A stretch of 64,000 nucleotides of DNA from a virus. Below are positions 11,648-45,546 of this stretch, piece by piece (within the stretch, counting starts at the first letter, position 1; every line of letters begins with the position of its first letter). Below the pieces are notes generated by a model that had not been told where the DNA came from, made no database searches, and was given only the letters and a program-made list of their open reading frames with translations. The translations under genes were made by a program, and so were the position numbers. The DNA lies in the IMG/VR virus record IMGVR_UViG_3300035698_005189, positions 1-64,000 of that record. The stretch is one strand, 5' to 3'.

Positions 11648-12438
11648 TAGTCGCTCCGTTCGGCGGTGTCGAGGATTGTTTCGATCGTACGGTATGAAAG
11701 GTCGGGACGCCAGCGCTTGAGCGCTACGCGGGATTCCGCCTTGGTAAGCCGTACCGGCTCGGTCGTGATCTCACTGATGGAGGCTGCGACCGCGTCGGCC
11801 CACTCTTCGGCGTAGGCGAGTTCGGTGATATCGTCCAGAACCCGGAGGGCCCCGCCGTCCCCAGCGGACCCACCGGCTCGAGAGTCGAACGACTCTGAGG
11901 ACGGGTAGCCGGCGGACAGTGCCTTGGCGAGCACCGAGAGGTGAGTCTCTCCGTTGACGGGAACATGGGTGATGGCGACGTTGCGGACACGGGCGGATGC
12001 AATCTTGCTCGTGTCGCTTGGGTCGCGGCGGCCGACCTTCCCCTCGATGGAGAAGCCGAGTCGCCTGGGAGTGCCCTTCAGTGCCTTGGCCTTATCCCAG
12101 AGGGCCCGTCCAGGTACGTCGTCGAGTAGGTAGCCTTCGGTCCACCAGCCCCGGTGCTCCGCTACGGTCCCGTCGGGGAGGCTGGCTCCCTTTTCCACGA
12201 GCCTGGCAGCGATCGGGTAGCCGAGGATGTCTACGGTCTTGTTGCCGTGGTTGTCGTTGTACCAGCCGATGTCGAGGAACTCGGAGAAGTCCAGGCCGTC
12301 CTGTACGACGGTCTCATCCTGTTTGTCGAGTCCCTCCGTAGAGACAATCCCACCGATACGCAGGGGATTCGCGTCGCCGGCCTTCTCGAAGGCGACAAGC
12401 GATGCGAATACCTGGAATCCGTTGGAGTCGGTTGGCAA
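11647..12438 (-). CDS. Prohead protease (S78 family)
   Basis: 263 residues as drawn. The catalytic His is H64 in GWYNDNHGNKTVDILGYPI and the catalytic Ser is S130 in RLGFSIEGKVGRRD, followed by VRNVAITHVPVN, the standard herpes/HK97 prohead protease pattern. It cleaves scaffold and capsid-associated proteins during head maturation. The start is uncertain: TTG at 12438 lacks a good ribosome site, and the frame stays open to a CTG at 12492 with GAGG ten bases before it, which would add 18 residues. Order protease-scaffold-capsid is classical. Confidence 0.85.
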   Translation of the reverse strand: MPTDSNGFQVFASLVAFEKAGDANPLRIGGIVSTEGLDKQDETVVQDGLDFSEFLDIGWYNDNHGNKTVDILGYPIAARLVEKGASLPDGTVAEHRGWWTEGYLLDDVPGRALWDKAKALKGTPRRLGFSIEGKVGRRDPSDTSKIASARVRNVAITHVPVNGETHLSVLAKALSAGYPSSESFDSRAGGSAGDGGALRVLDDITELAYAEEWADAVAASISEITTEPVRLTKAESRVALKRWRPDLSYRTIETILDTAERSD

Positions 12439-13042: not shown

Positions 13043-16000
13043 CTACCTCGGGGTCTGTGGGGTCTGTGGGGCGCTGAGACGTAACCCGGGGATGGCCTTG
13101 GCGAGGTCCAGCCTGGATGCCGAGGACACGTCCTCTGCATGTACGGTGTCGTAGTGGAGCGGGTCCCTGATGGCGACGCCGGCTTGGACGTCCCGCATCA
13201 CAGTCTCATTGACGACCTGGCGGGCGCGGCTGGTGGCGCGGACCGATACCTCGGTCAGCACTGGGTACTGGCGCTCGTAGCCGGCGTGGACCGTCTGATC
13301 CTTGGTGCCCTTCTGCTTGTCGCCCTTGATGGTGACCGTCTTCGGCATGACACACGACACACCGAATCGCGTCACGTTGACGAGATACTTCTTGGTCTTG
13401 AGGATGGCGCGGTCGGTTGGGCTGAGTTCGTCGATGACGGCTCGGGCGATATCCTGGTCAGTCACAACCACTCCGCCGGGGGCGGCCCGCATGGAGGCAC
13501 CGACGCGCACCCGGCGCTTGTCGATATAGCTCATGATCTCGTCGGCCCTGATAGCCAGGTAGATCGCAGTCGGATCAAGGGAGGACGTACCCTCGAGGAC
13601 GTACTCGGCCCCGGCGAAGGCGGCCCGGTCCTCTGGGCTCAGCTTGTCGATCGCTGCGGTGACGGCAGCCACGGCGCTGTCGGTGAGAGCCACCGGGTCG
13701 TCGTAGGTCCCGACAGCCGGGTCGGTGGCCGTCACGCCGCCGATGGGGAAGTCGATGACGTTACCCGACCCACCTGGGATCGGCGTGGTCTTCAGGTCCT
13801 CCAGGACGGCGGCTGCGTGCTCCGTCCCAAGGGTGGCGGCGACGTTCGCCTTGTTCGACAGGGCGGCCCACTCCTTGACCTGGGTGTCTGTGGGGTCGTT
13901 CGTGTCGCTGTGAACCATCATCGCGGCCGACTGGCTGGCGATGACCCGGCACGCGGCCTCGATGCTCTGCGTCGGCAGCTGCTTGCTGGCGTATTCGCCG
14001 AAGCTGAGGGTGAGGCCCTTCACCTCGCCCTGAGGGGCTCCACGCGGGGCAGGGCGGAAGGCATCGGGTTCCATCTCCTTGAGCTTGGTCACCGGGCCTG
14101 GGGTCGTGACGATATCCTCGACGTTGACCCACTTGTAGCCGGTGGCTCCGTCGGCCTCCTTGTACGACACTGGGACCACGGAGAACTTGGGGGACTCGCC
14201 AGGGGCGGCCTCGGTATCGAAGCGAGCCTCGGGTCGCTCCGGGTCGGGAGCGAGGTCGCGGTTCATGAACGCGACTCCGGTCGCACCGGCTGGGACACCC
14301 AGGGCTGAGACGATCCGGTCATCCTTGAGGGACTGACGGACTGCCGGCGGGAGCATACGAGCGCAGCGCGTGATCCGCTGCATCTCGGAGGCGGGGGAGC
14401 CGAGCGAGTCATACATGGCCAGCTCGGTGGCGTTGCCGAAGTTGAGGCCGACCTGGGCGGCGTCGGAGCACACAATGGCTTCGCAGTTGTTGAAGACGTC
14501 GCGCTTCTTCGGTGTCAGGGCCTCCGTGGTGGTGGCCTCCTTCTTGACGATCCCGGCGTACTCTTCCTTGAGGACCGCGTAGGCTTCCTTGCCGGCGGCG
14601 AAGGCGGCCTTGGCTTCCTTCTGCTCTTCGGGGGTCTTCTTATTGAGGTCGATCAGAAGGTCGTTCGGGTCACCAGCCAGGGCCATCTCGCGGAGGATAG
14701 CCGCCGATCGCTTGGTCCCGTAGAAGTACTTTTGAACCGCGTTGGGCCCGGACCCGTCGACCCAGAAGGCCTCCGGGGCATCGATCTTGAACTGCTGCCT
14801 GATCTTCTTTCGCGTGTCGTCGGTGAACTGGCTCATCTTGATGCCGGTTTCGTCTACCTCACCGGAGTAAGCGACCCACTTTCGGCCCCGCCCGAGCTTG
14901 TCCACGAAGACAGAGGTCTCCATGTCGCGCCCGAGCCTGTCCTTTACCTTCTTGAAGATCTCGGCGTTCAAGTCGCGGTTGCCTGTGTAGGTGGACCCGA
15001 TGTAGGTCACGAAGTAGCGACCGTTAGGGGAGGGTCCGGAGTCGGCTGGGTCGTAGTGCGGGCTACCCTCGATGGACTCGTTGACGTCCCTGAAGCCCAT
15101 CGTCCTCATGGTGGCCTCCATGGTACGACACCCGTCGAGGATGCCCCCAGCCATCATCACGAGTTGGCGGCGGCCCTCGGGCCCGTCGATGCCGCCTGGC
15201 CCATGGAACTGACCGACCCAGCCGGCCAGCTGCTCGGCCTTGGCGTTGCCGACCACCATCGCTACGTCGGCCTTGGCGCGCTCGTCACGGTGGCCGGGGT
15301 CGAAGATGCACGAGACGCGGGCCGCGACCTTCTTCTGAGCCACCCAGGTCGCTGCTCCGTCATCCTGGTTGACGACCACGCACTCCCCGACATGCTGCCC
15401 GGCCTCATGGGCCTCGGCGGTGGCTTCGGCGTCGTACTTGAACAGCGGGGGCTCCCACTCCTTCTTTTCAGTCGCTGACAGGCCACGGTCAGGCCTGACC
15501 CCGGCGTTGCCCTTGACGTCCACGATATCGCCTGGCTTGACCTTGTCGAAGCCACCGGCGCTCCTGGGCTTGCCGGTGTCCGGGTCGATGTCCTCGGGAC
15601 GGTAGAGAAGGTGGAGCGAGCCACGGGTATCGGACACCCAGCCCTCGCCCTCCATCACTGTGACGCCGCCGTAGGTTACGAAGTCGTGGTGGATGGTCTG
15701 GTCGGGTCGGATGCTCATGAGGCGCGACACCTCAGCTGGGTCGGACCCATCCTCGGTGGCGATCTGCTTGATGGTCTCGGGCATCCCCATGACGACCACG
15801 CGCTCAGACGGCTGGCCTTCGTCGTCGACCACGACGGCTACGCCCTTCTTGCCGATAAGCTCCCGGGCGCGGCGCTGGATCTCGATCGCCTTGTCGATGT
15901 CTGGGTCTGGCGGGGCGGGGGTGTCGGACCCGCGACAGCGGATACCGAGGGGACCCGCCTCCGGGTTCTGCACCTTGCGGGGCCAGCCATCGGCTCGCAT

Positions 16001-19000
16001 GGCCTTCAGTTGGGCCTTCGTGATCTTGGTACCAGCCACAGCACCGTAGTCGGCTCCGATGATATCGCGGAGGTGGAGCGTGTAGACGTCGGCCTCACCG
16101 GGACCACCCTCGAGGTCGGTGACCTCAGGCCAGCGACCAGCCCACTTGCCCCTGATCTTCTTGTCTGTGAACCAGTCAGGAGACCGAGTGTAGAAGTCGC
16201 CCTTGATGGCGTTGTCACCGGCGGACCGGCTGATCTGTACAAACTTCGAGTCGGACTGCGGCTTGTAGGCCGGGCAGTTGGAGATGGCCTTGGCTGCCAG
16301 GACGTTGCGCTTCGCGTCTCCGCTGAGGCCACGGAGTTCGTCTGCGCCGACCCAGCCACCCTCTGTGATCTTGTCCTTGTCGGCGTCGGTGAGCTTGGCC
16401 AGGTAGGCTGCGTACAGGATCGCCTGCGTGCCGGTCATATGGGCAAAGTGGGTCTCGTCCATGCGGGTAGCTGGGAGGGCCTTGCCCTTGACATCCTTCG
16501 TAGTGACGATGTGAGTCCAGCGACCGATGGTAGCGGCCACTTCCTCCCGCTTCTCGGGCTTCACGGAGATCTTCGGCCCAGCCGTTGCGGCCCCGGTGAG
16601 TCCGGGTACGACCGACTCTTCGAGGTACTCCTCGACGAAAGAATTGCGACTCATGCCGCCCCACTGCTCACCACGCGACAGGATCTTGACGTACTCGAGG
16701 AAGTCGGCGGGGCTGGTGGTCATCGGCGTGCCCGTCATGAGCACGACCATCTTCATCTTGTCGTTCCACCGGCGGAGGGCCTTGTTGCGGAGCGACGTGG
16801 AGGACTTGAGCCCGAGATGGGCTTCGTCTCCGACGAGGCCGTCGAAGCCAGCCGCGATGAGCTTATCTTCGTTGAGGGCCCAGTACTCGGGCCCGACTAC
16901 GACTGTGTCCTTACCGTAGGTCCCATTCTCGACACCCTTGAGGAAGGCGTCGGCTGGGATGTCGTTGGAGCCGGCCCCGACGACATGGCAGCCTACCGTG
17001 GTGAACGTATCGGAGGCTTCCCGCCACTGGTCCACGGTGTTGAGGGGAGCGACGATGATCACCTTCTTAGGTGCGTCGGGGTGGCGCTGGGTCGGATCGG
17101 CTGGGTCAAGGAGCGCCATCATCGTGCGAGCGCAAGTCAGGGCTGTTACGGTCTTGCCGGTCCCCATGAAGTGACCCAGTAGTCCTCGTCCCGCGTTGTC
17201 GAGGACGAGCTGGGTGCCGGCGGCCTGGTGGTCGGCCAGGGTGAAGGGCACCCCGTTCGGGAGGACGGCTCGCAGGCCTGTGGGGGCGAGGACGCCCGGG
17301 ATGCCGGCGGCCAGGACCTTGGGGTCGATATCGCGTAGCTCGAGGATGTGCTCCTTCTTAACGGCGCGGGCAGCGATCTCGTTCAGGTGGTCGGCCCTGT
17401 CGCGTAGGATGGCTTCGGCCTCTGAGGTAAGCGACAGACCGCCAACGGTCTCGCGGAGATTGGCGAACCCGGCGATAGACACGACCAGCGCGCTACCTGG
17501 CCCCTTGTGCTTATCAATCCGGTTGATGCCTGGCAGCTCCATAAGGTCGCCGTCATTCACACGACCCGACGCAGGGGTCAAGATCCGGAGTTCAGATGCG
17601 ACCACAGCGCCAGTCCGCTTGTCGACTTCGTCATGGCGGTAGATAAGTAGGCCGTCGGCCAGCCGCTCGGGGGTGGTCCCGGGAGCCACGGGGCGGACGG
17701 TCCGCCTGATCTCGTCCTGAGAGAACCGGACAAGACGACGCCCGGCGGCTCCGCCGCCTCCGACGCCGATGAAGATGTGTCGGTCAGGCCAGTCCTCAGC
17801 TGTCCAGTCCTCGACGTTCTCATCGTGGTTCTTGGTAGCAGGGTCGAGGATCGCAGTCTTCCAGTCGCGGTGAGCGGCGTCTTCTGGGTACCACCCAGGC
17901 AGTAGGCCGCCTCGCATGAGCTTCACTTCGGCCTTGGTGGGCTTGAAGGGTACAGGCGGCTCACGGTCGCTGCGCTGGAGTTCCTGGGGGTCGCCCTCGG
18001 CTGACGGTGGCATCCGGTCCCAGCCCGGGGGCGACGGCTTCTCGCCAGCCGGCTTGCCGGGCTCGATCCCGGTGTACTTGGCGATAACGTCCTTACCGCT
18101 CTTCCGGTCGAGTTCGGCTGGGGAGGCCTCGACGACGACGTTGTCGTATTTCTCGGGTACCCACTTCTCGCTGCGGACAGCAGGCTTCTTGATCCTGATC
18201 TTTTCGCCAACCACTGGCGCACGCGATACCTCGGTTCCGCCGAGCTTGACGACCGTCTCCCGGATGGTGTCATCGGGGACGGGGGTCGAGATGATGATAC
18301 CACCTTCGCCGTCGAGGATGGGGTCAGCGTCGTAGCCCTTGGCTATCAGGGCGGCGGCGAGTGCCGTGAGCCCGGCCCGGGTCTTGTCGTTCTTCTTGGG
18401 CTCCTTGGGGGTGCGATTCTTCGCCTTCTTGCCCGGCTTCTTGGGTACGACCAGCCGCAGGTTGGCGGGCTCGATCTTTACTCCGGTACCGCTGTAGGTG
18501 ACGTGGACGAGGGATTGGTCTTTCTTGATTCCCAGCTCATGGCCCATCGCCTCGAGGTCGGCCTTGATGCGATACGCCAGATCCTTCGACGCGGTCCGGT
18601 GCTCACCGGGGGTCGCTGGGACATGCTCGACGTCGGTGTGGCGGTAGCCGCCCACAATCCGGCCCTGACCCAGGAGGTCGTCGAGACGAGGCTCCTTCTT
18701 GCCGGTACGACGCTCCCACTCGGTACCGAGCAGTCGGGGCTGACCCCGCCCGTCAAACTCGACCTGGACGTGGAAAAGGTGACCGGTGTCGCCGCCGGTA
18801 GTATCGGTTGCGACCGAGATCCAGGCACGACGACGCTCCGAGGCGGCCTTTTTGCATAGATCCTGCAGGTGCTCGGGCGAGCGGACGTCTTCGAAGCCGC
18901 CGGGGGTCAGTAGCTCTCGCCACATCGGGGACTCGATGAAGAAGCGACCGTGACGACCGTCCTCCCCGGACGTATCGGCCAGGACGTCTATCGCAGTCTT

Positions 19001-20950
19001 GGTGCCGTCCGGGTTGTCGTTCAGGTAGGTGATGCGGGCCCGCCGGGGGAGCATGGAGCCATCGGCTTGCTTGTCGAGGATCAGCTGGTTCGCCAGGAAC
19101 TTGCCGGTAGTCGGGTCCCTGGTGACCTCTCGCATAGCGTGTCGTGTATTCTTGGTCAGCCAGCCCTTGAGGGCCTCGGCGTGAGCCTCGGGGGTGGTCG
19201 CAGCGCGGAGGGCGTCCCACTCCCGATGGCCTGCGGCGTCGAAGGCGTCATAGGCGAACGTTCCTGACTTCTGTCTAAAGTCGTTGGCTGTGATCTCGAC
19301 GGGAAGGTGGGGGAGGGCGGCCTCGGCCTCGGTGGCGTCTTTGCCGAAGGCGGTCCGTCCCAGCGCCCGGAGGTACTCGTTGAGCTGACGGCGGCGGAGG
19401 GCCTTGATGTTCTTGGGGTCCCGGGAGTCGAACCCCATGAGGTCGGCTACGTCTGCGTGCTCGTCTGGGAGGGCGTCCTGGTTCAGGTACCACCAGGCCT
19501 TCATCGTGGTGAGCGGGTTGCCGTCTCCGTCGTACATCTCCTTGAGTTCGCCGATGCGTGGGCGGACCTTGGAGGCCTCGGGGTTGGTCGGGTCCCAGCC
19601 CATGACTGGCTTGTCTGGGGAGATGGGGCCGACTCGCATGAACATGGTTCGACCGGATACGCTCATCTCGTAGAAGCGGTCGTAGTTGCCCTGGTTGCCG
19701 GTGGCTTCCCGGTTCGGTGGCGGCATCTGCAGGAACCCGGTCGCTGGCGGGCTTTCGGAGACACGGAGGGCTGTGGCGACAGCCGTCTCCTTGGTTTTCC
19801 ACCAGGCCAGCCGGTCATCGTCCTTGGCCATGTCGAGGATGCCGACACACCAGTCGGCCTTCTTGGCAGCCTCCCGGGCGGCAGCTGGGTTGGTACCAGA
19901 CAGGCTCTCTGCGATGGCCAGGTGCTTGGCTTGGCCTGCCTCATCGGTCGCCAGGGGGCGGAGGACGTCTTTACCGAAGAACGACCTGAAGAACTCGTAA
20001 GCCCCAGGCGCGGCGACAGCGAGGTCGTGGGGGTACATCACAGCGGCAGTGAACGACTCAGCCCAGCGCTCGAAGTCATTCGTCAGGGAGTAGGGGGTGA
20101 CGCCCTTCTCCTTATCGCCGCCATCTCGCATGAACTTGATCCAGTCAGCCCAGACAGGTCCGTCGTAGTCTTTGTTGACGTCCCGCGCCTTTTCGCCTCC
20201 GTGAGCCCCGAGCTTGTTGTGTACGGCGTGCGCCATCTCGTGTACGAGGCACTCGACCATGAACGCCGAGCCCTTCATTCGGTGGCCCCAGCCGCCCTGG
20301 CACTTGTCATCGAGGATGGTCAGGTCTGTGACCATGTCGCCATTAGCGTCGTAGGAGGGGGAGGCCAGGCCTGCCCAATTCACGCCGTTGATCTTCTTTC
20401 GTCCCCGGGGGTCCTCGTCGGCGGTCGTGAACTTGATGTTACGAATCAGGCCATCGAAGTTGTCCCGAATGATGGGCGGGAGCAGTCGCTGGGCGGTGTC
20501 GACGGCGCGGTAGTTGGAGATCTGGGCGCCATGCGGATCGTCAGGCTCGGTGTCGCCGCCGTTGTAGAGCTTGTTGATCCCGTTCTCGTACACCTTCTCC
20601 GCCTGCTTCGACAGGACGATGTGAGGCGGCTTCTCCCAGCCCAGGTAGGCCTCGAGGTACTCCGATGACAGGGCCGATAGTCGCTTTCGGGCTCCCTCAG
20701 TCTCCGGGTTCTCCTTGGCGAAGTCGGCCTTGGTCCGATGCACCAGCTTCTGGTGGGTCGCATCGGCTGCTGTGACGTCGGCAGCGAGGCGCTCCATCCA
20801 CTTCCGGCGCTTGTTGTCGTCTGGGTAGTAGTAGACCCACGCGAGCTTCCCGTTGACCATTCGCCTGACGCGCTTCCAGTACTTGTGCGACCGTGAGGTG
20901 CCACGCGAGAAGCCACTGGCGGCCTTTGCGATGCTGAGTCCGGGCTTCAT
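13043..20950 (-). CDS. Giant 2635-residue virion-type protein with zincin and superfamily 2 helicase domains
   Basis: Residues 1-50 carry a basic aromatic segment (HKYWKRVRRMVNGKLAWVYYYP) preceded by IAKA. Residues about 230-305 contain HEMAH (237-241) and, downstream, FERWAESF with a Glu spaced as a third zinc ligand, so a zincin metalloprotease is likely. Around residue 1262 is Walker A GTGKT, then VIIVAPLNTVDQW, DEAH near 1373 and LMTGTPMT, all typical of SNF2-like/superfamily 2 motors. The C-terminal RecA lobe is near 2160-2200 (AAQVGLNFGNA, QRITRCARML). The rest is long linker and unassigned domains. It resembles the polyvalent proteins described for phages and conjugative elements. Injection with the genome is inferred from position between MuF and protease genes. 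Confidence 0.75.
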   Translation of the reverse strand: MKPGLSIAKAASGFSRGTSRSHKYWKRVRRMVNGKLAWVYYYPDDNKRRKWMERLAADVTAADATHQKLVHRTKADFAKENPETEGARKRLSALSSEYLEAYLGWEKPPHIVLSKQAEKVYENGINKLYNGGDTEPDDPHGAQISNYRAVDTAQRLLPPIIRDNFDGLIRNIKFTTADEDPRGRKKINGVNWAGLASPSYDANGDMVTDLTILDDKCQGGWGHRMKGSAFMVECLVHEMAHAVHNKLGAHGGEKARDVNKDYDGPVWADWIKFMRDGGDKEKGVTPYSLTNDFERWAESFTAAVMYPHDLAVAAPGAYEFFRSFFGKDVLRPLATDEAGQAKHLAIAESLSGTNPAAAREAAKKADWCVGILDMAKDDDRLAWWKTKETAVATALRVSESPPATGFLQMPPPNREATGNQGNYDRFYEMSVSGRTMFMRVGPISPDKPVMGWDPTNPEASKVRPRIGELKEMYDGDGNPLTTMKAWWYLNQDALPDEHADVADLMGFDSRDPKNIKALRRRQLNEYLRALGRTAFGKDATEAEAALPHLPVEITANDFRQKSGTFAYDAFDAAGHREWDALRAATTPEAHAEALKGWLTKNTRHAMREVTRDPTTGKFLANQLILDKQADGSMLPRRARITYLNDNPDGTKTAIDVLADTSGEDGRHGRFFIESPMWRELLTPGGFEDVRSPEHLQDLCKKAASERRRAWISVATDTTGGDTGHLFHVQVEFDGRGQPRLLGTEWERRTGKKEPRLDDLLGQGRIVGGYRHTDVEHVPATPGEHRTASKDLAYRIKADLEAMGHELGIKKDQSLVHVTYSGTGVKIEPANLRLVVPKKPGKKAKNRTPKEPKKNDKTRAGLTALAAALIAKGYDADPILDGEGGIIISTPVPDDTIRETVVKLGGTEVSRAPVVGEKIRIKKPAVRSEKWVPEKYDNVVVEASPAELDRKSGKDVIAKYTGIEPGKPAGEKPSPPGWDRMPPSAEGDPQELQRSDREPPVPFKPTKAEVKLMRGGLLPGWYPEDAAHRDWKTAILDPATKNHDENVEDWTAEDWPDRHIFIGVGGGGAAGRRLVRFSQDEIRRTVRPVAPGTTPERLADGLLIYRHDEVDKRTGAVVASELRILTPASGRVNDGDLMELPGINRIDKHKGPGSALVVSIAGFANLRETVGGLSLTSEAEAILRDRADHLNEIAARAVKKEHILELRDIDPKVLAAGIPGVLAPTGLRAVLPNGVPFTLADHQAAGTQLVLDNAGRGLLGHFMGTGKTVTALTCARTMMALLDPADPTQRHPDAPKKVIIVAPLNTVDQWREASDTFTTVGCHVVGAGSNDIPADAFLKGVENGTYGKDTVVVGPEYWALNEDKLIAAGFDGLVGDEAHLGLKSSTSLRNKALRRWNDKMKMVVLMTGTPMTTSPADFLEYVKILSRGEQWGGMSRNSFVEEYLEESVVPGLTGAATAGPKISVKPEKREEVAATIGRWTHIVTTKDVKGKALPATRMDETHFAHMTGTQAILYAAYLAKLTDADKDKITEGGWVGADELRGLSGDAKRNVLAAKAISNCPAYKPQSDSKFVQISRSAGDNAIKGDFYTRSPDWFTDKKIRGKWAGRWPEVTDLEGGPGEADVYTLHLRDIIGADYGAVAGTKITKAQLKAMRADGWPRKVQNPEAGPLGIRCRGSDTPAPPDPDIDKAIEIQRRARELIGKKGVAVVVDDEGQPSERVVVMGMPETIKQIATEDGSDPAEVSRLMSIRPDQTIHHDFVTYGGVTVMEGEGWVSDTRGSLHLLYRPEDIDPDTGKPRSAGGFDKVKPGDIVDVKGNAGVRPDRGLSATEKKEWEPPLFKYDAEATAEAHEAGQHVGECVVVNQDDGAATWVAQKKVAARVSCIFDPGHRDERAKADVAMVVGNAKAEQLAGWVGQFHGPGGIDGPEGRRQLVMMAGGILDGCRTMEATMRTMGFRDVNESIEGSPHYDPADSGPSPNGRYFVTYIGSTYTGNRDLNAEIFKKVKDRLGRDMETSVFVDKLGRGRKWVAYSGEVDETGIKMSQFTDDTRKKIRQQFKIDAPEAFWVDGSGPNAVQKYFYGTKRSAAILREMALAGDPNDLLIDLNKKTPEEQKEAKAAFAAGKEAYAVLKEEYAGIVKKEATTTEALTPKKRDVFNNCEAIVCSDAAQVGLNFGNATELAMYDSLGSPASEMQRITRCARMLPPAVRQSLKDDRIVSALGVPAGATGVAFMNRDLAPDPERPEARFDTEAAPGESPKFSVVPVSYKEADGATGYKWVNVEDIVTTPGPVTKLKEMEPDAFRPAPRGAPQGEVKGLTLSFGEYASKQLPTQSIEAACRVIASQSAAMMVHSDTNDPTDTQVKEWAALSNKANVAATLGTEHAAAVLEDLKTTPIPGGSGNVIDFPIGGVTATDPAVGTYDDPVALTDSAVAAVTAAIDKLSPEDRAAFAGAEYVLEGTSSLDPTAIYLAIRADEIMSYIDKRRVRVGASMRAAPGGVVVTDQDIARAVIDELSPTDRAILKTKKYLVNVTRFGVSCVMPKTVTIKGDKQKGTKDQTVHAGYERQYPVLTEVSVRATSRARQVVNETVMRDVQAGVAIRDPLHYDTVHAEDVSSASRLDLAKAIPGLRLSAPQTPQTPR

Positions 20951-21259: not shown

Positions 21260-23371
21260 TTACCTCGTGCCGGTTCCGTTCTTGAAGAGTGCGGTCATCA
21301 TACCAGACAACCCACCGCTGGGCTGCTTTGCGTTGACGTCGTGGACCGTCCCAGGGGCGCTAATAGCCAGCTCTGGATCTACTTCCGTGTGAGCGGTCAT
21401 CGCTCTAAACTGAGCAATCCGCTCCTTGTCGCGCTGCTGCATGTATGCTCGTCTGGTCGACTCGACCTGCGACGGCGTGCTCGTGCCGGCTACTTCGGCG
21501 TCGAGCTGGGCTCCTACGGCATCGGCTGTGCCAGCCCGGGAGGCGGCCTGGTAGACGTAGACTCGCTCGTCGGTGCCGAATCGCTCCTTGAGGTCACGGT
21601 GCGATGGGCCCGAGGCCTCGAACTCAGGCCAGACCTCTTCGGAGGCCACCCACTGGTCGATCCGGTCCCGGAACGACGCATCGCGTGCGGTGGCGACTCG
21701 CTTGAAGCTCTCGGTTGCTGTGTCGAGCGCAGCGGCGGCTGCCCTGCGCTTGGTCGGGCGGGACTTGCCCTCGGCGAGCCCCAGCGCCTCTGCGACGTCA
21801 TCGAGGGAGCCTGGCTCGCCGTCATTGTCGAGACCGAACCTGACCCGGAGGGCTGTGCGGTTGTCGCCGTCGGCCATGGCCCCGAGGACGTCGTCTACTT
21901 CCTCCCTGACGTGGAGGGCGGTGCCGGCTGTGTAGGCCCCAGCCCCGCTCATCGGTAGGATGGCTTCCTGGTGGATGAGCCACTCTTCATTTCCGACCAC
22001 CCGGTCGCCACGGACGAGGTCGCCCAGGGTGTGGACGAGTTGCACCTTGCCGGGGTGGTCCTTGCCGAGTTCGTCCCCGTTGGGGGTCTTGATCTTCCAG
22101 GGACCGTCGGGGACCTCTTCGGAGCCCTGGTCGATGGTCTTACCGTCGTCGGTGACGTAGTTGCCGAGGTCCTTGCCCTGGTAGACGTCCCGCTTCTTCA
22201 GTCGCCATTCCGTAGCGGTCTTCTCCGGGGTCGGCTCGATGCCGAGGCCCTTCTTGCGGGCTCTGGTCCTGGCAGCGATGAGCCCGCCGATTACCTTCAT
22301 CTTCCTGTCGGGGATGGTGATGCCGGCCCCGAGTTCGGTCCGGGCCGCCTGCAGGGCGTAGGTCATGGCGAAGTCTTTGGCGTGCCCCAGGAATGGGGAG
22401 CCTCCTCCGTACGTCGACAGGCCCATCGCGAATCCGTAGTGGGCTCCGCCCAGAAGCTCTTCGTACGCGGCGGATGGGCCGCCTCCGGGAGCTACGCGTG
22501 CGATACCGTACCGCTGAGCGATACGCTTGGCTGCCCCGTGGATGAGCGGACGAAACTCAGCGAGCGTGGCAGCCTGTTGCTGCTTGGGGACCGCTACGCC
22601 GTCCCGCCACTTGCCGAGCGAGTTCTTCACCCGCAGGACAGCGAAGCCGCTGTGCTCCATGTCGTGCAGGATGGTGCCGGGCTCTGCGCGTGACTCAGCG
22701 AAGGGCTTGAGGCGACGAGCGGCGTCGGACACCGGGCCCTCTTCGGATGGCTTTTTGGGAGGCTCCACATTTACCGGCCTGCGCTGAGGCGGGGGCGGAG
22801 GTGGCTGGTGGCGCTTAGGAGGCGGGGGCGCGTCCTCTGGGGGCTTGGGTGGCTTCGCCTTCGGCTTCGGCGACTCCCGGCGGAGGGGGACGAGAGTAGT
22901 CTCCCTGGCCAGGTGGTGGCTGCCGGGGCTGGTGACCGAGGTCACCCAGACACCGCCTTCGGGCGCGGCGGCGTGGTCCGGGGTGACCCGGTAGAGGCCC
23001 TGCCTGCCTCCGACCTCAACGACGTCGCCGGCCTTCACGTTCTCGTAGGTCCTGGTGGGGTCGCGTTCCCAGGGGTGGGCGTCGTGCTCACGGTGTCCTG
23101 GGTACCAGTACTCGTAGCCCTTAGAGCCCTTGGCCTTCTTACGATATCCGCCCTTCTTGCCGCCGGGGATGGCTGCCCAGCCAGCGCCGGGTGGGGCATG
23201 AATCGCCTTGCTCAGGTCGGCCTGAGATTCCTCAGCTGCGATCTCGTCCCAGGCCTCACGGAGGCCGGCGGGGACGGGGTACCACTCGACATCGCGGGTT
23301 CCGTCGTCAGCGAAGTCACCGTCAACCATCCGAGGGTCCACCGGGACCGGGAGGGCTGCTACCTTGGCCAT
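21260..23371 (-). CDS. 703-residue virion-type protein with a sigma-70-like domain
   Basis: Residues 53-56 are LSKA, followed by a Gly/Lys segment (PGGKKGGYRKK, 69-79) and YEYWYP (86-91), then a small beta domain (about 107-165), a Pro-rich linker (168-210) and a C-terminal half with sigma-factor layout. Residues 270-348 (RPLIHGAAKRIAQRYG, YEELLGGAHYGFAMGLSTYG, FAMTYALQAARTEL) resemble region 2. Residues 352-392 (IPDRKMKVIGGLIAARTRA, EPTPEKTATEWRL) resemble region 3. Residues 500-550 (LRVRFGLDNDGEPGSLDDVAEALG, PTKRRAAAALD) resemble region 4. If real, it would be a virion-borne transcription factor. The family is by eye; confidence in the reading frame is high. Confidence 0.65.
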   Translation of the reverse strand: MAKVAALPVPVDPRMVDGDFADDGTRDVEWYPVPAGLREAWDEIAAEESQADLSKAIHAPPGAGWAAIPGGKKGGYRKKAKGSKGYEYWYPGHREHDAHPWERDPTRTYENVKAGDVVEVGGRQGLYRVTPDHAAAPEGGVWVTSVTSPGSHHLARETTLVPLRRESPKPKAKPPKPPEDAPPPPKRHQPPPPPPQRRPVNVEPPKKPSEEGPVSDAARRLKPFAESRAEPGTILHDMEHSGFAVLRVKNSLGKWRDGVAVPKQQQAATLAEFRPLIHGAAKRIAQRYGIARVAPGGGPSAAYEELLGGAHYGFAMGLSTYGGGSPFLGHAKDFAMTYALQAARTELGAGITIPDRKMKVIGGLIAARTRARKKGLGIEPTPEKTATEWRLKKRDVYQGKDLGNYVTDDGKTIDQGSEEVPDGPWKIKTPNGDELGKDHPGKVQLVHTLGDLVRGDRVVGNEEWLIHQEAILPMSGAGAYTAGTALHVREEVDDVLGAMADGDNRTALRVRFGLDNDGEPGSLDDVAEALGLAEGKSRPTKRRAAAAALDTATESFKRVATARDASFRDRIDQWVASEEVWPEFEASGPSHRDLKERFGTDERVYVYQAASRAGTADAVGAQLDAEVAGTSTPSQVESTRRAYMQQRDKERIAQFRAMTAHTEVDPELAISAPGTVHDVNAKQPSGGLSGMMTALFKNGTGTR

Positions 23372-23372
23372 G

Positions 23373-24863
23373 CTACACGTCCTCGAAGAGAGTCGGATTC
23401 GCCCCGGCCCGCTCCACAGCCCACTTCCGGAATACTTCGGGGTGGATGTAGGAGGCCCGGGCGACAGCTGGGGTATTGTTGATCAGGGAGGCGACCTTCT
23501 TGGATGCGACGAACATGGCCTTAGCCAGGAGGCGCTTATCGCTCTTGGTGTCACCCGTGAGCGGCGGAGGGGTGTCGGTGGCGTTGATGGATCGCTCCGC
23601 CTCCTTCGTCGCCAGGATTGTCCGCAGATCCTTCAGGTACATCCCAGCGGGGAGGATGTCGCGCGACGCAGCGAGGGCCGCTCTGCCGAACAGCGGACGG
23701 TTGCGATGGCCGCCTCCCTTGGTGTAGTGGGACACGGCCTCAGCGATAGCCTTGTTCCTGATCGTGGCGGTGTTGGTCTTGCCCTGTTTCCCGACGAAGT
23801 CGAACTTGACCACGTTGCCCTCGACGGAGACGTGAGCCGACGTCAGGGTGGAGACGCCGTAGCGGCCTGCCAGCATCCCTGGCCCACCAGGCCGGAGGCC
23901 AGTCTTGGCGATAATCGCAGTGATAAGCGCGGCCTGATGGTGACGCGACCCAGGCTCGGCCCGGGACAGCTTCGACTGGATGCCTCGCACGATCTTGGGG
24001 TGGTCCTCGATAAACGACTGGACGCGGGCCCACTTGGCGGCGTCGGAGGCAGCGTGGAACTCGGGGGTATACCCGGACTGCGGCCGACCGGCCCTGTCTT
24101 TCCATCGGATGACAGCCGTCTTGTGCGGGTCGCCGTCGAGGCGCATGGTGATGGCTGGCAGGGGGATGGCGGCCTCGGGCAGCTTGCTTACGCCGAGGGC
24201 CTTCAGTCGCGCCAGGACGTTCGGATGTAGCTGGGAGCCTGGCGGGCGGTGCTTCTCGGGCTTCTTGGGTCGCCCTCGCGTAGCGGGAGCCCCAGCCTTC
24301 CACGGGATCGTATGCTTGGCGTCGGCCCACTTACCGCCTCGAGGCCCGATGAAGGGGCCGCCCGACTTGGCCAGGATGATGGCGGCACCGAGGGAGGCCT
24401 CACCTGAGGCAACCATGGCCCCGAAGTCATCGAGGGAGATCTCGGTGACCCCGGCTACGGCCTTGCCTCCCAGCGGGTGATGGGCGCAGAAGGCGTCGAG
24501 GGCTGCATCGCGGTCTGGGAACCACAGGAAGATCTTGTCTTCGTCATACCCGATAGCGCTGGGGTCGTAGTCTTTCTGGTGAACGACGTAGACCATTTCG
24601 TTGGTCGGGTCGGGTCCGACGTAAGCATCCACAGGCTGCCCATCGGCCCCGAGAGTGCCTTCGACCTCGCCGTACGGGAATCGCATCACGGCGGCCCACG
24701 GCTTGCCCTCCGGGTCCCGGCCCCGCCGGACCTGGCCGGCTGCGTTCTCGACTGCGACGGTGACGCAGGGCGAGATGGCTATGCGGCCGACGAAAGGGAA
24801 CGGGTCCCGGTTGGGGCTTGGGGGAGGGAGCATGGCCCGGCCACCCTTCGACGCGATGATCAT
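23373..24863 (-). CDS. Fusion of a pyrophosphatase-like domain and DNA topoisomerase IB
   Basis: 496 residues; ATG at 24863 in an ATGA overlap with the MuF-like gene and AGGAAG upstream (the frame itself opens earlier). Residues 20-150 (FVGRIAISPCVTVAVENAAG, YGEVEGTLGADGQPVDAYVG) match the inorganic-pyrophosphatase-like domain found in polyvalent phage proteins. Residues 166-190 are a tag-like segment (KSGGPFIGPRGGKWADAKHT). Residues 230-480 show topoisomerase IB: Arg324 (TGLRPGG), a hairpin Lys (FVGKQGK, 359/362), Arg414 (YLKDLRT) and the nucleophile Tyr472 (SYIHPEVF). Expected to relax supercoils through a 3'-phosphotyrosine intermediate. All key residues appear present. Confidence 0.85.
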   Translation of the reverse strand: MIIASKGGRAMLPPPSPNRDPFPFVGRIAISPCVTVAVENAAGQVRRGRDPEGKPWAAVMRFPYGEVEGTLGADGQPVDAYVGPDPTNEMVYVVHQKDYDPSAIGYDEDKIFLWFPDRDAALDAFCAHHPLGGKAVAGVTEISLDDFGAMVASGEASLGAAIILAKSGGPFIGPRGGKWADAKHTIPWKAGAPATRGRPKKPEKHRPPGSQLHPNVLARLKALGVSKLPEAAIPLPAITMRLDGDPHKTAVIRWKDRAGRPQSGYTPEFHAASDAAKWARVQSFIEDHPKIVRGIQSKLSRAEPGSRHHQAALITAIIAKTGLRPGGPGMLAGRYGVSTLTSAHVSVEGNVVKFDFVGKQGKTNTATIRNKAIAEAVSHYTKGGGHRNRPLFGRAALAASRDILPAGMYLKDLRTILATKEAERSINATDTPPPLTGDTKSDKRLLAKAMFVASKKVASLINNTPAVARASYIHPEVFRKWAVERAGANPTLFEDV

Positions 24864-25819
24864 TTCTTCCTCCTGACGAGCCTGCCGGCTACGCCGATAA
24901 CGGTCGGGACCGCCTGGCCAGACCTCCAATCCTCGGGAAACCGTAACATATCGGGAACGCGGAGCATCGAGCAGGCGCACCAGGGATGCATCGTGCCCAC
25001 CACGGCCTGCCAGTCGGCTTGCTTGCGACCGACGTTGGTTCCATTGTCGGTAAGATCGTCCAGGTAGAAGATCCGGGGGACACCACCCGAGAGGTAGAGT
25101 CGGATGCAGTGAGGGCAGGCGGTCGCACGCGGGAGCTTGTAGACGCGCTGGCGGCGGCCCTGCGGGGCGGACTCCTGCCACCGGGCGGCCTTGCCTTCCT
25201 GCACTGTGTTCTGGAACTCGGTCTGAGCTATTCGCTGCAGGTCACGGGTCCAGTCTTTAGTGAGGTGTCCCATGTCGCTCGTCATGCGGCTGACGGTGGA
25301 GCGGAACTGGCCGTCGAGGAAGTCGTCGGTCAGGCCTTCCTCCGCCCCGATCTCCTTGAGGCGGGCGGACGCATCCTCGTCGCCAAACCTGGCGGCCACG
25401 ACATCGCGCATGATGCCCCGGAGGCGGCGGTCCAGCGCGGCGTCGGCTTCGACGAGCATCTTGCCGGTGGCCTCTTCGACCCGGTTGCCCAGGCCGACGA
25501 CATACTGCGCGGCACGGGCGGACGCGATCTCAGCTGAGAGGCGCTCTTCCCGAGTCTGCGGGATCGGGCGGTCAGCGAAGTGCGCCATACCAAGATCGTA
25601 TCCGGGGCTGCCGCTGGCGGCGATGGCTGTCCCGGCGGCGAACACAGGAGCCACCAGGCCAGGCGACGCGTCCTCAACGAGTCCGAGCCCAACGGCTGCA
25701 CGCCAGTCGAGCTTGGTGGCGGAGGACTTGCCTCCGATGGCGGCGGCGGCAGCCGCGTGGTTCCGTCTGAGGACCTCGGCTACGCGTCGTCGCACCTCTG
25801 GGGTGACGAGGCGGGCCAC
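24860..25819 (-). CDS. MuF-like minor head protein
   Basis: 319 residues. The C-terminal part is the MuF signature: RIAQTEFQNTVQEGKAARWQ, then a CPHC pair, Asp-rich loop (YLDDLTDNGTNVGRK) and HPWCACSM, a Cys/His set probably binding zinc. The N-terminus is helical and variable, as usual. MuF proteins sit inside the head near the portal and are often fused or linked to injected effector domains; here the effectors are in the adjacent genes. Overlaps the next gene by ATGA. Confidence 0.85.
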   Translation of the reverse strand: MARLVTPEVRRRVAEVLRRNHAAAAAAIGGKSSATKLDWRAAVGLGLVEDASPGLVAPVFAAGTAIAASGSPGYDLGMAHFADRPIPQTREERLSAEIASARAAQYVVGLGNRVEEATGKMLVEADAALDRRLRGIMRDVVAARFGDEDASARLKEIGAEEGLTDDFLDGQFRSTVSRMTSDMGHLTKDWTRDLQRIAQTEFQNTVQEGKAARWQESAPQGRRQRVYKLPRATACPHCIRLYLSGGVPRIFYLDDLTDNGTNVGRKQADWQAVVGTMHPWCACSMLRVPDMLRFPEDWRSGQAVPTVIGVAGRLVRRKK

Positions 25820-26971: not shown

Positions 26972-28627
26972 TCATACGTTGATCTCGTATCGAGTCACCC
27001 GCGCCGGGCGGGCTGGCCACTCTGACCTTATGGCCTTCTCAGCGGTGTCGTCCAGCTCGTCGCCCCAGGCACCGTCCCCGTCCTCGGGACTGAAGTCGAA
27101 GTCGGCATCGGATGCCTCGTCCTCCTGAGCCGGTTCGCCAGGCGCTCCGGGCTCACCAGGACCACCCGACCCGCCGCCCATGTCGGGCTGCTCTGCGGCT
27201 TCCTGGGCTTGCTTGTTCTGGAGCCAGGTCGGGTCGAGGATGATCTCACCGAGCCCGTCAGGCATCGGCTCCATCCCGGCGGAGTCGCGGGCTTCGTCGA
27301 CCGTAACGAAGACCTTGGTCTGCTTGGCGAGAAGTTCGGCTTCGGCGTCGGGGCCCTTCTCGGACAGGCCCACGGGGACCGCCTCGAAGTCGTCGTCGAG
27401 CTGCCGGACGAAGTAGGTGTTGAGGCACTCGAAGAGCCACTCGACCAGCGGTCGCAGACCGAGGTCGCGCGACGCCTTGAGCTTCTCTTCGATGGACGAC
27501 TGACCCATGGCCCCAGACTGCCCGGTGTTCCCGTAGCTGAAGTTGACCTCTTCGGGTGCGATCTGGAACCGGGCGCAGACGACCTTGATCAGGAAGTCCA
27601 GCCAGGAGCTGTACTCCATATCACGATTCGACATCTGCATGTTAATCCACTGCAGCTCTTCGGCGTTCGTGATCGGGGTGCGCCAGGCGTTGGATACGCC
27701 GCTGACCATCGCGTGCCACTGGCGGCGGAAGCCGTCCAGCTGGCGCGACGGGATCGGGCCCTTGAAGTTGAGGATTCCCTTGGTCGCTGAGCCCTGTGAG
27801 AAGAAGCGACGATTGTACTCCATACCCCACAGGAACCCCGTGATCTCACGGACCAGGGTCTCGATCTCGGAGATGCCGTAGCCGTAGGCATGTAGAGACG
27901 TCCTGGGGTTGCGGGTGCAGAACGCCATCTCGTCTGGGGCGAAGTCGGCGAAGACCGACCCGTTGATGACCTGGACGGCGTAGGGGTCGCCTGACGACCG
28001 TGTGCCTGGGTCCAGCAGGCGGATGGTGTCGGCTGCGAGTAGGGACAGGTAGGCCGGCTGGCCCTTCCGGTTGCGTACGATCTCGAAGGGGGCCTGGTCC
28101 CAGATCAGGGAGTTCTCGACCATCATGCGGCCGAAGGTCCGGAGGGGTACGCCGTCCTGCGGGCGGTTGTCTGGGACCACGCCGGTCGTCAGGAGCAGCG
28201 CCTCCAGCTCACCGGCTCGCTTGTCGGAGGCCCGGGTGACCTTGGCCTTCTTGTCGCGGAGGCGGACCCGGAAGCCAGCCCCATGGCGATCCTCGGGCTG
28301 GACAAGGAACGTCGCCACCTGATTCGCCCGGACCTTGATGACGTCGGCGACGACAGGTACTCCACGACCGATCATCTCCATAGCCCCGTAGGACAGCGAC
28401 GTCGGCCGCTCCCGGTAGCCCATGGCAGCGACGAGGTCGAACGGGTCCCAGTGGAGCCCCTTGGGAGCCTCTTCGGTATCCTTGACGTTGCGGGCGGGGC
28501 TCGTGATGGTCCCGGGGTCGGCTGGCTGCGCCGACCGTGGGGCCTTGCTGATGGAGTCCTCCACGGCGACCGTAGCCCGTCGGGCCACGGCTCCGCCGAG
28601 AGATGTGAGGTCGTCGCGCAGGCCCAT
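26972..28627 (-). CDS. Portal protein
   Basis: 551 residues. The HK97/SPP1-type portal pattern is visible: a crown/wing region with ANQVATFLVQPEDRHG, the stem part with LHAYGYGISEIETLVREITGFL, YNRRFFSQGSATKGILNFKG, and NREMEY-like sequence (MSNRDMEYSSWLDFLIKVVCARFQIAPEEVNF), then a long acidic Pro/Gly-rich tail. It forms the dodecameric ring for DNA passage. Close to TerL, as expected. Residues 26-29 are ISKA, a possible protease site. Confidence 0.9.
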   Translation of the reverse strand: MGLRDDLTSLGGAVARRATVAVEDSISKAPRSAQPADPGTITSPARNVKDTEEAPKGLHWDPFDLVAAMGYRERPTSLSYGAMEMIGRGVPVVADVIKVRANQVATFLVQPEDRHGAGFRVRLRDKKAKVTRASDKRAGELEALLLTTGVVPDNRPQDGVPLRTFGRMMVENSLIWDQAPFEIVRNRKGQPAYLSLLAADTIRLLDPGTRSSGDPYAVQVINGSVFADFAPDEMAFCTRNPRTSLHAYGYGISEIETLVREITGFLWGMEYNRRFFSQGSATKGILNFKGPIPSRQLDGFRRQWHAMVSGVSNAWRTPITNAEELQWINMQMSNRDMEYSSWLDFLIKVVCARFQIAPEEVNFSYGNTGQSGAMGQSSIEEKLKASRDLGLRPLVEWLFECLNTYFVRQLDDDFEAVPVGLSEKGPDAEAELLAKQTKVFVTVDEARDSAGMEPMPDGLGEIILDPTWLQNKQAQEAAEQPDMGGGSGGPGEPGAPGEPAQEDEASDADFDFSPEDGDGAWGDELDDTAEKAIRSEWPARPARVTRYEINV

Positions 28628-28629
28628 GG

Positions 28630-28992
28630 CTACCCCCGGGCGAGGATGGAGAGGGGGTCGACGAGTCGGCCACTGGGGGAGCGGACGGGCGCTCCCCGGT
28701 TGTCGATGGCGCCCACGGTGGCAGCCTTGACGACCGGCGCAGCCTCGAGGCCTGGGCCCCGGGTCCGGTCGCCCATGGTCAGGGCGGCCTGAGCGGTGTA
28801 GTCCGGAGCGACGTCGTAGCTGCAGACACCGACGAGGAGCGGTTCGGCCTTGACGACCTGCTCCACAGCCGCAGGGCTATCGGCCACGACAGGGGCCACC
28901 GGGGCGGCTTTGACGAGGTCGGGGTCGGCGGGGGATACGCGGGCGGGGTGGCCAGCGGTGAGGATGGCGAGTGCGAGGCGGTCGGTGGTCAT
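28630..28992 (-). CDS. Small virion protein with three h-x-K-A repeats
   Basis: 120 residues between the 853-residue protein and the portal. It contains DLVKA, QVVKA and PVVKA at residues 25-29, 45-49 and 86-90, which look like three equivalent processing sites separating Ala/Pro-rich pieces. No known domain. If the prohead protease recognises this sequence, this would be cut into short peptides, perhaps a minor scaffold or internal head peptide. Confidence 0.5.
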   Translation of the reverse strand: MTTDRLALAILTAGHPARVSPADPDLVKAAPVAPVVADSPAAVEQVVKAEPLLVGVCSYDVAPDYTAQAALTMGDRTRGPGLEAAPVVKAATVGAIDNRGAPVRSPSGRLVDPLSILARG

Positions 28993-31550
28993 TCTCTGCT
29001 CCTGAGTGTGGCGACCAGTTCGGTGGCCTGGCTGGTATTCATGCGGACCTCGTCATCGCTGACAAAGGAACCGGCGGGGACGGGGCCGAGGTCGCCGACG
29101 TCGCCCTTGATGACGACTGTCTCGTCATCGTGGTCTACCGTCATGCCGCCGAGCGACTTGACGAGGTTGCCGATGACGGCGGCCTTGGCGGCTGCCTTCT
29201 TGGCTTCGCCGCCCAGCCCGAAGTACCGGCGGACGGTCGTCTTGTGCTTCTTGGTGCCGTGGACAGCCGACAGGAGGCTGCCGGCGGTACTATGGACGGT
29301 GCCCTTCCAGCGGAAGGAGCCACCAGCCAAGACTTCGGCGTGACGATGGTCTTCGCCGTGTTCCTGGGCGTGACGGTCCCTGACCCGCAGGACCATGCCG
29401 GGCTGCAGGTCGTCTCGGTGGCCGTGCTCGTTGGTGGCGTGGGCCGCTCCGCGCTTCGGGCCCTTGGGGAGGGAGGGGGTCTTCTTCTTGGGTGGAGTCG
29501 GCTTCTTGGGTGCGACCTTCTTCTTGGTCGGCGACGTGTGAGCGCCGGCCTTGGTGCTGGCTCCATCCGCCATGTCGGAGCTGTACTCAGCCTCGATCCT
29601 TTTGCTACTGGACCCGCCGATAGCGTCCATATTGTCACGAGCGGCGGCTTCGTGGGCGCGGGCTGCGGCGGTATGCTTGGTTGCTCCCTTGGTGTCACCG
29701 GCGGCTCTGAGCTTCTTAGCCGATGCATGATGTGTGCCGGCTGTGCTCTGGTGGGCGTCTGCTTTCACGGTGTGAATCTTGCGGGACTTACTGCCTGGTG
29801 TGGGCTTCGCTGGGGGCTTGTGGCCGATAAGGCCGACGACGTCTGGGACCTTAGCTGCGGTCGCCTCACGACTGGACACAGACGCGGCCTCGGACGCGGC
29901 CTCGGCCCTCTTCGAGACGCGGAAGATCCCCTTTCCGCCAGCGTGGGCGGCTGCTGCCTCGTCGTGGGCCATGGCTGCCGTGTAGTGCGCCAGTGCGGCT
30001 GTCCTACCGGCGATGCCGGCGGCACTACTTCCGCTGCCGGCCTCGTCCTCGTGGCTGGCGGCCTTCTCCCTGTGCTCTGCAGCCTGGCGGCCGTGGTGGT
30101 GGGCGGCCTCGTTCACGGGCTTCTGGGTGCCTGTCTTGGGCTCTGTGTACTGGTACTCCCAGCCAGCCCCCTTGCGGCGTCGCTGTCCACCGTGCTTACC
30201 CCCAGGGATCGCTTGCCAGCCGCCTTCAGCCTTCACGATAAACCCGGAGTCGGCGGTCTGGGTACGGGGGAGAAGGAGGCGACCGGAGGTCGTGAGCATG
30301 GGGTTCGACATGGACTTTCGCACCTTGCTGGCGACCTTGTCGGACGCCGTTACGATCTTGCCGTGGTTGCGGTGGGCGAAGGCTGAGCCCATCGCAGCAC
30401 CGGCGGGACCCAGGAGGACGGCTCCCACAGTCGCGCCGAGGGCGAGGACTGCGAGGGTACGCAGGCTGTGGCCAAGAACGGACAGGCCTGCGCGGGTCGG
30501 ATGGGAGCGGCTGTGTCGTGCCTGGTGGCGGAGGGCAGCGATTTGCTTGAGCAGTTTCGCGTGCTGGGCCTTGTGCTTCCCGCCCGGGTCCAGGGTCTCC
30601 TCGATGGTCTTCGTAGTCCGCTCGACGACATGGGCGGCCCCAGCCAGCGACGCCGCCTCACGGGGGTCGGTCGGTGGCTGGTGGTCTTCGTCGGTCAGGT
30701 CGGCTGGCTCTACGACGCCGGCCCAGGCTGCGATGTACGCCGCCTCGTCGACAGGGGAGGTGTCAGCCCCGTCTGCGGGCTCAGGACCGGCTGGGGTATT
30801 GCCAGGGGCCTCCGACGGTGCTCCCGGGGCGGGGGCTGCGCCCAGCTTCTTGCCGGACGCCTTCTCCATTCGCGTCACGAGGGCGTCGAGGTGCTCCATC
30901 GTGTGGCCGGGCTTGAGCTTCCCACGGATGCGGATGCCGGCGGACTTCGCCTGCTTCCGGATCTCGCGGAACCGGGCGGCGACCTTAGGGTCGGCGTCGC
31001 CCTTGGCTGGGGGAGTGACCTTGTCGCCCTGGATCGGCTCACCGGGCTTCCTGCCTGGCAGGTTAGACGACCCGCCCCGCCAGTACTCGTACCCGTTGCC
31101 CTTCTTGCGGCGAAAGCTGCCCTTCTTGCTCCGGGGTGCCGGCTCCCAGCCAGCACCCGGGGGCCCAGCCTTCCTGAGTCGCACGCCATGGTCGATGACC
31201 TGGGGCGCGAGTGAGTCGGGAATGCCGGCCTGGCGGAGGACCTTGGGGACGTCGAATAGCTCGCAGGCGTCGTTCGCTACAGCATCGATGACGTTGGCCA
31301 GCTGCCGGGCGGTGGAGACGTCCAGACCGAAGGCGGACGCGGCCTCTTCGGCTGACTCGAAGTCGCGCTTGATGGGGCGCTGCTTCGGTCGCTCGGTCAC
31401 TGGGAACTTGGCAGAGAGCCACGCAGCCCGGTCAGGGTCGTTGACGTCATGCCAGACCCTATCGTCAAGTTCGGGATGCTTGCCTGTGGCGCGGCGTCGG
31501 GAGTCAGGGATCACAGTATGGACCTCCGACCTAATGTTACGCCGTCCCAC
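28989..31550 (-). CDS. 853-residue virion-type protein with two tag segments, a membrane-like region and Ala/His repeats
   Basis: Residues 125-158 (LRKA, then PPGAGWEPAPRSKKGSFRRK and YEYW) and 438-470 (IVKA, EGGWQAIPGGKHGGQRRRK, WEYQY) repeat the segment seen in the sigma-like protein. Residues 355-392 are hydrophobic and Gly/Ala-rich (LAVLALGATVGAVLLGPAGAAM), possibly membrane-spanning. Residues 480-650 are a long run of Ala/His-rich helices (AHYTAAMAHDEAAAAHAGG). The C-terminus has a beta-rich module (QPGMVLRVRD). The start overlaps the TerL stop by 14 bases. Probably a packaged protein; the enzyme content, if any, is not recognisable. Confidence 0.65.
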   Translation of the reverse strand: MGRRNIRSEVHTVIPDSRRRATGKHPELDDRVWHDVNDPDRAAWLSAKFPVTERPKQRPIKRDFESAEEAASAFGLDVSTARQLANVIDAVANDACELFDVPKVLRQAGIPDSLAPQVIDHGVRLRKAGPPGAGWEPAPRSKKGSFRRKKGNGYEYWRGGSSNLPGRKPGEPIQGDKVTPPAKGDADPKVAARFREIRKQAKSAGIRIRGKLKPGHTMEHLDALVTRMEKASGKKLGAAPAPGAPSEAPGNTPAGPEPADGADTSPVDEAAYIAAWAGVVEPADLTDEDHQPPTDPREAASLAGAAHVVERTTKTIEETLDPGGKHKAQHAKLLKQIAALRHQARHSRSHPTRAGLSVLGHSLRTLAVLALGATVGAVLLGPAGAAMGSAFAHRNHGKIVTASDKVASKVRKSMSNPMLTTSGRLLLPRTQTADSGFIVKAEGGWQAIPGGKHGGQRRRKGAGWEYQYTEPKTGTQKPVNEAAHHHGRQAAEHREKAASHEDEAGSGSSAAGIAGRTAALAHYTAAMAHDEAAAAHAGGKGIFRVSKRAEAASEAASVSSREATAAKVPDVVGLIGHKPPAKPTPGSKSRKIHTVKADAHQSTAGTHHASAKKLRAAGDTKGATKHTAAARAHEAAARDNMDAIGGSSSKRIEAEYSSDMADGASTKAGAHTSPTKKKVAPKKPTPPKKKTPSLPKGPKRGAAHATNEHGHRDDLQPGMVLRVRDRHAQEHGEDHRHAEVLAGGSFRWKGTVHSTAGSLLSAVHGTKKHKTTVRRYFGLGGEAKKAAAKAAVIGNLVKSLGGMTVDHDDETVVIKGDVGDLGPVPAGSFVSDDEVRMNTSQATELVATLRSRE

Positions 31551-45538: not shown

Positions 45539-45546
45539 GGAGTCTC

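Follow-up and report, generated by a model that had tools for sequence, protein, structure and literature searches.

To our knowledge, phages start transcription in one of two ways, by relying on the sigma factor of the host or by injecting an RNA polymerase. In the case of N4, a whole single-subunit polymerase is injected: this virion-carried transcription part is encoded near virion genes and is used before phage gene expression. The 703-aa protein described here is likewise encoded near virion genes and would have the same role, but it would bring in only a sigma-type specificity part, the core being that of the host. Phages are also known to encode diverged sigma factors of their own, including T4 gp55, the phiEco32 sigma and ARK07826 of Aeromonas phage phiA8-29, which are in this respect like the 703-aa protein. 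Unlike the injected sigma factor that we propose, the phiEco32 factor acts once it has been synthesised in the cell, where it drives middle and late genes.

A second closely related system is that of polyvalent proteins, which are described in the main text of a 2017 survey (Iyer et al., PMC5512222) that covers 131 domains and in which the N4-like RNA polymerase is the named transcription payload. According to that text, InPase is a phage-specific polyvalent domain that is likely packaged into the virion. The gene block studied here resembles such proteins in several ways: its products are large, multidomain and encoded near portal and head genes, they include InPase, zincin and SNF2 domains, and their domains are shuffled between the proteins of related viruses. 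The sigma-70 module, in contrast, is not among the domains discussed in the main text of the survey, where the word sigma does not occur. A jumbo phage review deals with free sigma factors only, and a search of the open-access literature for packaged or virion sigma factors yielded reovirus sigma proteins and free sigma factors of phages or hosts, but nothing else. We found no earlier report of a packaged sigma factor in that literature, and read the 703-aa protein as a polyvalent protein with a sigma-70 module. In addition, we know of no phage sigma factor with an InPase fusion or a head-block tag.

The 703-aa gene within the head gene block

The window, a stretch of 64,000 nucleotides, is taken from a virus record of 98,094 bases with a GC content of 66%. 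The record corresponds to a tailed phage genome that codes for a DNA polymerase, a primase, a helicase and a RecA-like protein of its own, as well as for baseplate proteins. Among those phage genes that were scanned, none was recognised as encoding an RNA polymerase, so that the host enzyme is presumably used. The phage also has two DNA methylases, of the C5-cytosine and the N6/N4 type (window 43980-45635 and 58105-58977).

The 703-aa ORF starts with an ATG at 23371 and its stop codon ends at 21260, a single base separating its start from the stop codon of the preceding InPase-TopoIB gene. It lies between the portal and head protease genes in one run of minus-strand genes, in the order clamp, terminase, 853-aa tagged protein, 120 aa, portal, 176 aa, p319, InPase-TopoIB, 703-aa gene, 102 aa, zincin/SNF2 giant, 211 aa, head protease, 296 aa and major head protein. 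The first-pass annotation had placed the gene between a topoisomerase and a giant helicase in a head gene block, and the Pfam and PHROGs matches of its neighbours bear this out. The main genes of the block are:

28989..31550, minus strand: 853-aa protein between terminase and portal, with two tag segments (iterated HMM)
26972..28627, minus strand: portal
24860..25819, minus strand: MuF-like minor head protein p319 (homology; fusion to InPase in relatives L025 and L066)
23373..25181, minus strand: InPase (PF18823) and topoisomerase IB (Pfam)
21260..23371, minus strand: 703-aa polyvalent-type protein with sigma-70 module (ORF; homologs in relatives L022 and L024 at 39% and 33% identity)
13043..20950, minus strand: giant polyvalent protein with SNF2 helicase (Pfam, PHROGs) and zincin-like HEMAH motif (seen in the sequence)
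11647..12438, minus strand: head protease
9224..10699, minus strand: major head protein

The true start of the InPase-TopoIB protein is probably inside the listed ORF. As for p319, we take it to be MuF-like because of its C-terminal CPHC...HPWC pattern, its place beside the portal gene and the weak head-morphogenesis PHROG match (E 0.0011) of its L024 homolog. The gene order is kept in L034, an extended version of L022, as portal, p319, InPase-sigma, p102, giant, p211 and protease.

A diverged sigma-70 module with regions 2, 3 and 4 in order

The 703-aa protein holds a diverged sigma-70 module in which regions 2, 3 and 4 are colinear with those of cellular sigma factors. Its segments are arranged as follows:

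23096..23194, minus strand: tag segment, residues 60-92, PGAGWAAIPGGKKGGYRKKAKGSKGYEYWYPG (iterated HMM, all ORFs of the virus and its relatives)
22736..22885, minus strand: proline-rich linker, about residues 163-212 (sequence)
22331..22558, minus strand: region 2-like sigma helices, residues 272-347 (hhalign; model and Foldseek ranking)
22199..22321, minus strand: region 3-like sigma segment, residues 351-391, ITIPDRKMKVIGG...EPTPEKTA (hhalign)
21932..22186, minus strand: conserved insert between regions 3 and 4, residues 396-480, beta structure (secondary structure of the model)
21677..21904, minus strand: region 4-like sigma helix-turn-helix domain, about residues 490-565 (phmmer, hhalign, superposition at 2.9 A)
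21344..21676, minus strand: C-terminal helical domain, residues 566-676, conserved in the homologs (alignment, model)

The first-pass annotation had already read sigma-70-like regions 2, 3 and 4 in this protein from a set of peptides, and sequence, profile and fold agree with it on their order and coordinates. All these peptides are present (residues 272-281, 303-313, 330-347, 351-363, 379-391, 508-531 and 540-550), one of them having been miscounted: "TKRRAAAALD" is really TKRRAAAAALD.

When the whole 703-aa protein was compared by phmmer with 177,635 PDB sequences, the top three matches were SigB (E 0.0088), SigA and again SigA, all three falling at region 4. Local alignment of residues 257-560 with E. 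coli RpoD gave a score of 54 that was reached by 0 of 500 shuffles (mean 32.2, sd 4.7). This alignment is colinear through ITIPDRKMKVIGG/IRIPVHMIETINK, GIEPTPEKTA/GREPTPEELA and LRVRFGLDNDGEPGSLDDVAEALG/LRMRFGIDMNTDYTLEEVGKQF, so that the region 3-like segment runs alongside IRIPVHMIETINK...EPTPEELA of RpoD. The same test was weaker for the L022 homolog (6 of 500 shuffles reached its score) and negative for the L024 homolog (158 of 500), showing that the homologs alone hold less sequence signal.

Profile comparisons were then made by hhalign, with a query profile of the three homologs (703-aa protein, L022 and L024) and a target profile of 20 cellular sigma factors (RpoD plus 19 others, taken from six diverse genomes). 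The score was 34.5 over 193 colinear columns extending from region 2 to region 4, compared with at most 24.5 for 60 column-shuffled profiles and about 20 for reversed profiles; a profile comparison of this kind had been among the checks proposed in the first-pass annotation, and its score lay above every shuffle. When the query was split, region 4 alone scored 33.6 and regions 2-3 alone scored 21.8 in the correct register, against a shuffle maximum of 18.3 (80 shuffles for regions 2-3), while neither the insert between regions 3 and 4 nor the C-terminal domain rose above shuffles. Region 4 therefore clearly stands out, whereas regions 2-3 are insufficient on their own. Among the other genes of the block, each searched as a single sequence against the sigma profile, the best score was 26.3, for a 30-residue match at region 4 of residues 136-165 of the minor-head-like protein (24860-25819), a likeness that is probably a chance helix-turn-helix resemblance.

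Other searches gave little. Pfam and PHROGs scans of the 703-aa protein and its homologs returned no sigma match, and the Pfam models of sigma regions 2 and 4 (PF04542 and PF04545) matched nothing in the whole virus record. Likewise, no sigma match was obtained when the profile of the three homologs was compared with PDB sequences, nor when the homologs were searched singly, and regions 2-3 alone had no significant sequence match. A cellular sigma profile searched by hmmsearch over 3137 phage ORFs ranked the 703-aa protein first, but only at E 0.5.

The predicted fold was examined with an AlphaFold2 model of a 420-residue region built from three sequences. Despite the low confidence of this model (pLDDT 58, pTM 0.37), a Foldseek search against 350,542 PDB chains placed sigma chains at ranks 1-23, in line with the sigma fold that the first-pass annotation had suggested looking for in a structure prediction. 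The best E value was 8.2e-4, the sigma alignments mostly covered about 280-340 columns, and region 4 of the model superposed on SigA region 4 at 2.9 A. The long alignments had low TM-scores (0.14-0.19 on the query), so the model does not predict how the domains are placed relative to one another, and what supports the result is local structure, sequence and order. Regions 2-3 modelled alone (pLDDT 67) again had sigma chains at Foldseek ranks 1-14, with E values near 1 or worse, which makes this an argument from ranking only. Against viral structures, the two best Foldseek matches were annotated phage sigma factors of Ackermannviridae, the best being phiA8-29 ARK07826.

Compared with the primary sigma factors SigA, SigB and RpoD, the 703-aa protein has in common the order of regions 2, 3 and 4, the RFGLD and EPTPE motifs and the helix-turn-helix of region 4, the part that binds the -35 element in sigma factors. 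It differs from them in an insert of about 80 residues before region 4, in an extra C-terminal domain, in altered residues of regions 2.2 and 2.3, and in falling below every Pfam cut-off. As read from the alignments, all three homologs have GG or SG in place of the clamp-contacting Gln-Glu of region 2.2, and none of the three has the tryptophan pair of region 2.3, the melting region, so that the protein may bind polymerase and melt promoters differently or no longer do so. Diverged sigma factors do not always keep these conserved residues; among those of phages, T4 gp55 for example lacks classical residues as well. AT-rich promoter-like stretches were also sought in the 98-kb genome, and these gave nothing useful for promoter specificity.

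A shared tag and domain fusions in related viruses

The tag of the 703-aa protein is a 32-residue segment that reads roughly PGAGWxxIPGGKKGGxRKRKGxGYEYWYP. An HMM started from residues 56-102 and iterated matched the 703-aa protein once and the 853-aa protein twice, and the tag was also found in head-block proteins of most relatives (L006-L025), sometimes as two copies per protein. The idea that this segment is common to several large proteins, which came from the first-pass annotation, is thereby confirmed. The giant protein gave no match to the HMM and has merely a loosely similar KYWKR...WVYYYP stretch. The sharing of a tag by otherwise unrelated proteins of one block suggests a common destination or partner, and the tag may serve as a signal for packaging or docking. 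Another motif, GPFIGPRGGKWADAKHTIPW, is present in the InPase-TopoIB protein and again in L066 and L008, and the N-terminal segment 12-46 of the 703-aa protein also heads a 199-aa ORF of L008.

The relatives were located through their portal protein, and homologs of the 703-aa protein were then identified in two of them: an 890-aa ORF in L022 (39% identity) and a 1630-aa open frame in L024 (33-34% identity). Further searches of viral contigs returned just these two again, together with one tag-only match, and no homolog was found in 50,697 phage records or, with the patterns used, in GTDB genomes. In L022 and L024, InPase, a tag-like stretch and the sigma part are on one chain, which thus combines at least two functionally unrelated domains, as polyvalent proteins do. 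The chain that carries InPase in L025 and L066 also includes the minor head protein. Together, and with InPase as the link, these fusions tie the sigma part to a head protein. The window itself has separate, adjacent ORFs for InPase-TopoIB and sigma. No sigma part was detectable in L025 and L066, showing that the module is not universal.

Other payload domains vary as well. The TopoIB domain stands behind InPase in the window (23373-25181) and in L021, while in L008 (11620-15291) it forms the C-terminal portion of a 1224-aa protein encoded directly after the terminase, at 59% identity; this presence at differing loci indicates that payload domains are shuffled among related viruses. A 1008-aa protein of L066 (1098-4121) joins the minor head protein and InPase to a zeta-toxin-type kinase domain (PF06414). 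In L024 (3738-5600), the part of the 1630-aa protein that precedes InPase has an LTHNHP motif that recalls JAB-type metalloproteases, with no Pfam match.

Competing explanations and a possible role at the start of infection

We considered that the protein might not be a sigma derivative at all, but a helical protein with a helix-turn-helix that resembles region 4 by chance, as the absence of matches to curated models, the poor values for regions 2-3 alone (no significant sequence match and a Foldseek E of about 1) and the hhalign score of 26 reached by a helix of the minor head protein might suggest. This is very improbable, since regions 2-3 align in the correct register and outscore each of 80 shuffles, the colinear alignment of the whole extends over 193 columns, and two unbiased PDB searches, by sequence and by fold, both rank sigma factors first; on the strength of the shuffle controls and these two rankings, we rejected chance resemblance.

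Two other explanations accept the sigma ancestry of the module. One, which we regard as unlikely, is that the protein is an ordinary phage sigma factor of the late type, which is synthesised in the course of infection and whose gene lies in the head operon by chance; it would not be packaged, and the tag and the InPase link would serve some other purpose. Phage sigma factors in the reviewed literature are indeed free proteins, the best-matching sigma gene, that of phiA8-29, sits among recombination genes whereas the 703-aa gene is in the head block, and every phage sigma factor that we know of acts after synthesis in the cell. Against this stand the InPase fusion, with InPase tied to the minor head protein in relatives, and the tag common to neighbouring head-block proteins; moreover, a late sigma factor inside the late operon that it serves would need another factor to start. 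The other, distinctly unlikely, is that a sigma-derived domain is packaged and injected but no longer initiates transcription, and instead occupies the host core or displaces the host sigma factor (host shut-off), or only binds DNA. That all three homologs have lost the Gln-Glu of region 2.2 and the tryptophan pair of region 2.3 would fit such a role, as would the anti-host activities described as frequent in polyvalent proteins in the main text of the survey (PMC5512222). Regions 2, 3 and 4 are nevertheless kept in order across three diverged viruses, which favours retained use of both promoter-binding parts. A further point against this reading is that diverged phage sigma factors of the T4 gp55 kind lack classical residues too.

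Considering these points, we lean towards the explanation that the 703-aa protein is polyvalent, carried in the capsid and injected, and that its main payload is the diverged sigma-70 module with its lineage-specific insert before region 4. We infer virion delivery, which the first-pass annotation had also raised, from context: the position between portal and protease genes, the InPase fusions, the fusion of InPase to the minor head protein, the shared tag, and neighbouring genes that are themselves of polyvalent type (InPase-TopoIB and the zincin/SNF2 giant). That the phage delivers in its virion a sigma factor which, from the outset, guides the host core polymerase to phage early promoters is in our view about as probable as not. 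In such a scheme, the protein would be packaged with the head and would enter the cell together with the DNA; the sigma module would then bind host RNA polymerase core, which would be steered to phage early promoters before any phage gene expression, while the neighbouring TopoIB and SNF2 proteins would handle the incoming DNA.

Since sigma homologs can fall below standard annotation cut-offs, others may sit unseen in head gene blocks. If the proposal is true, the injection of a sigma factor would give phages a third route to transcription initiation, it would free phage early promoters from the need to resemble host promoters, and it would add a promoter-choice payload to the repertoire of polyvalent proteins.
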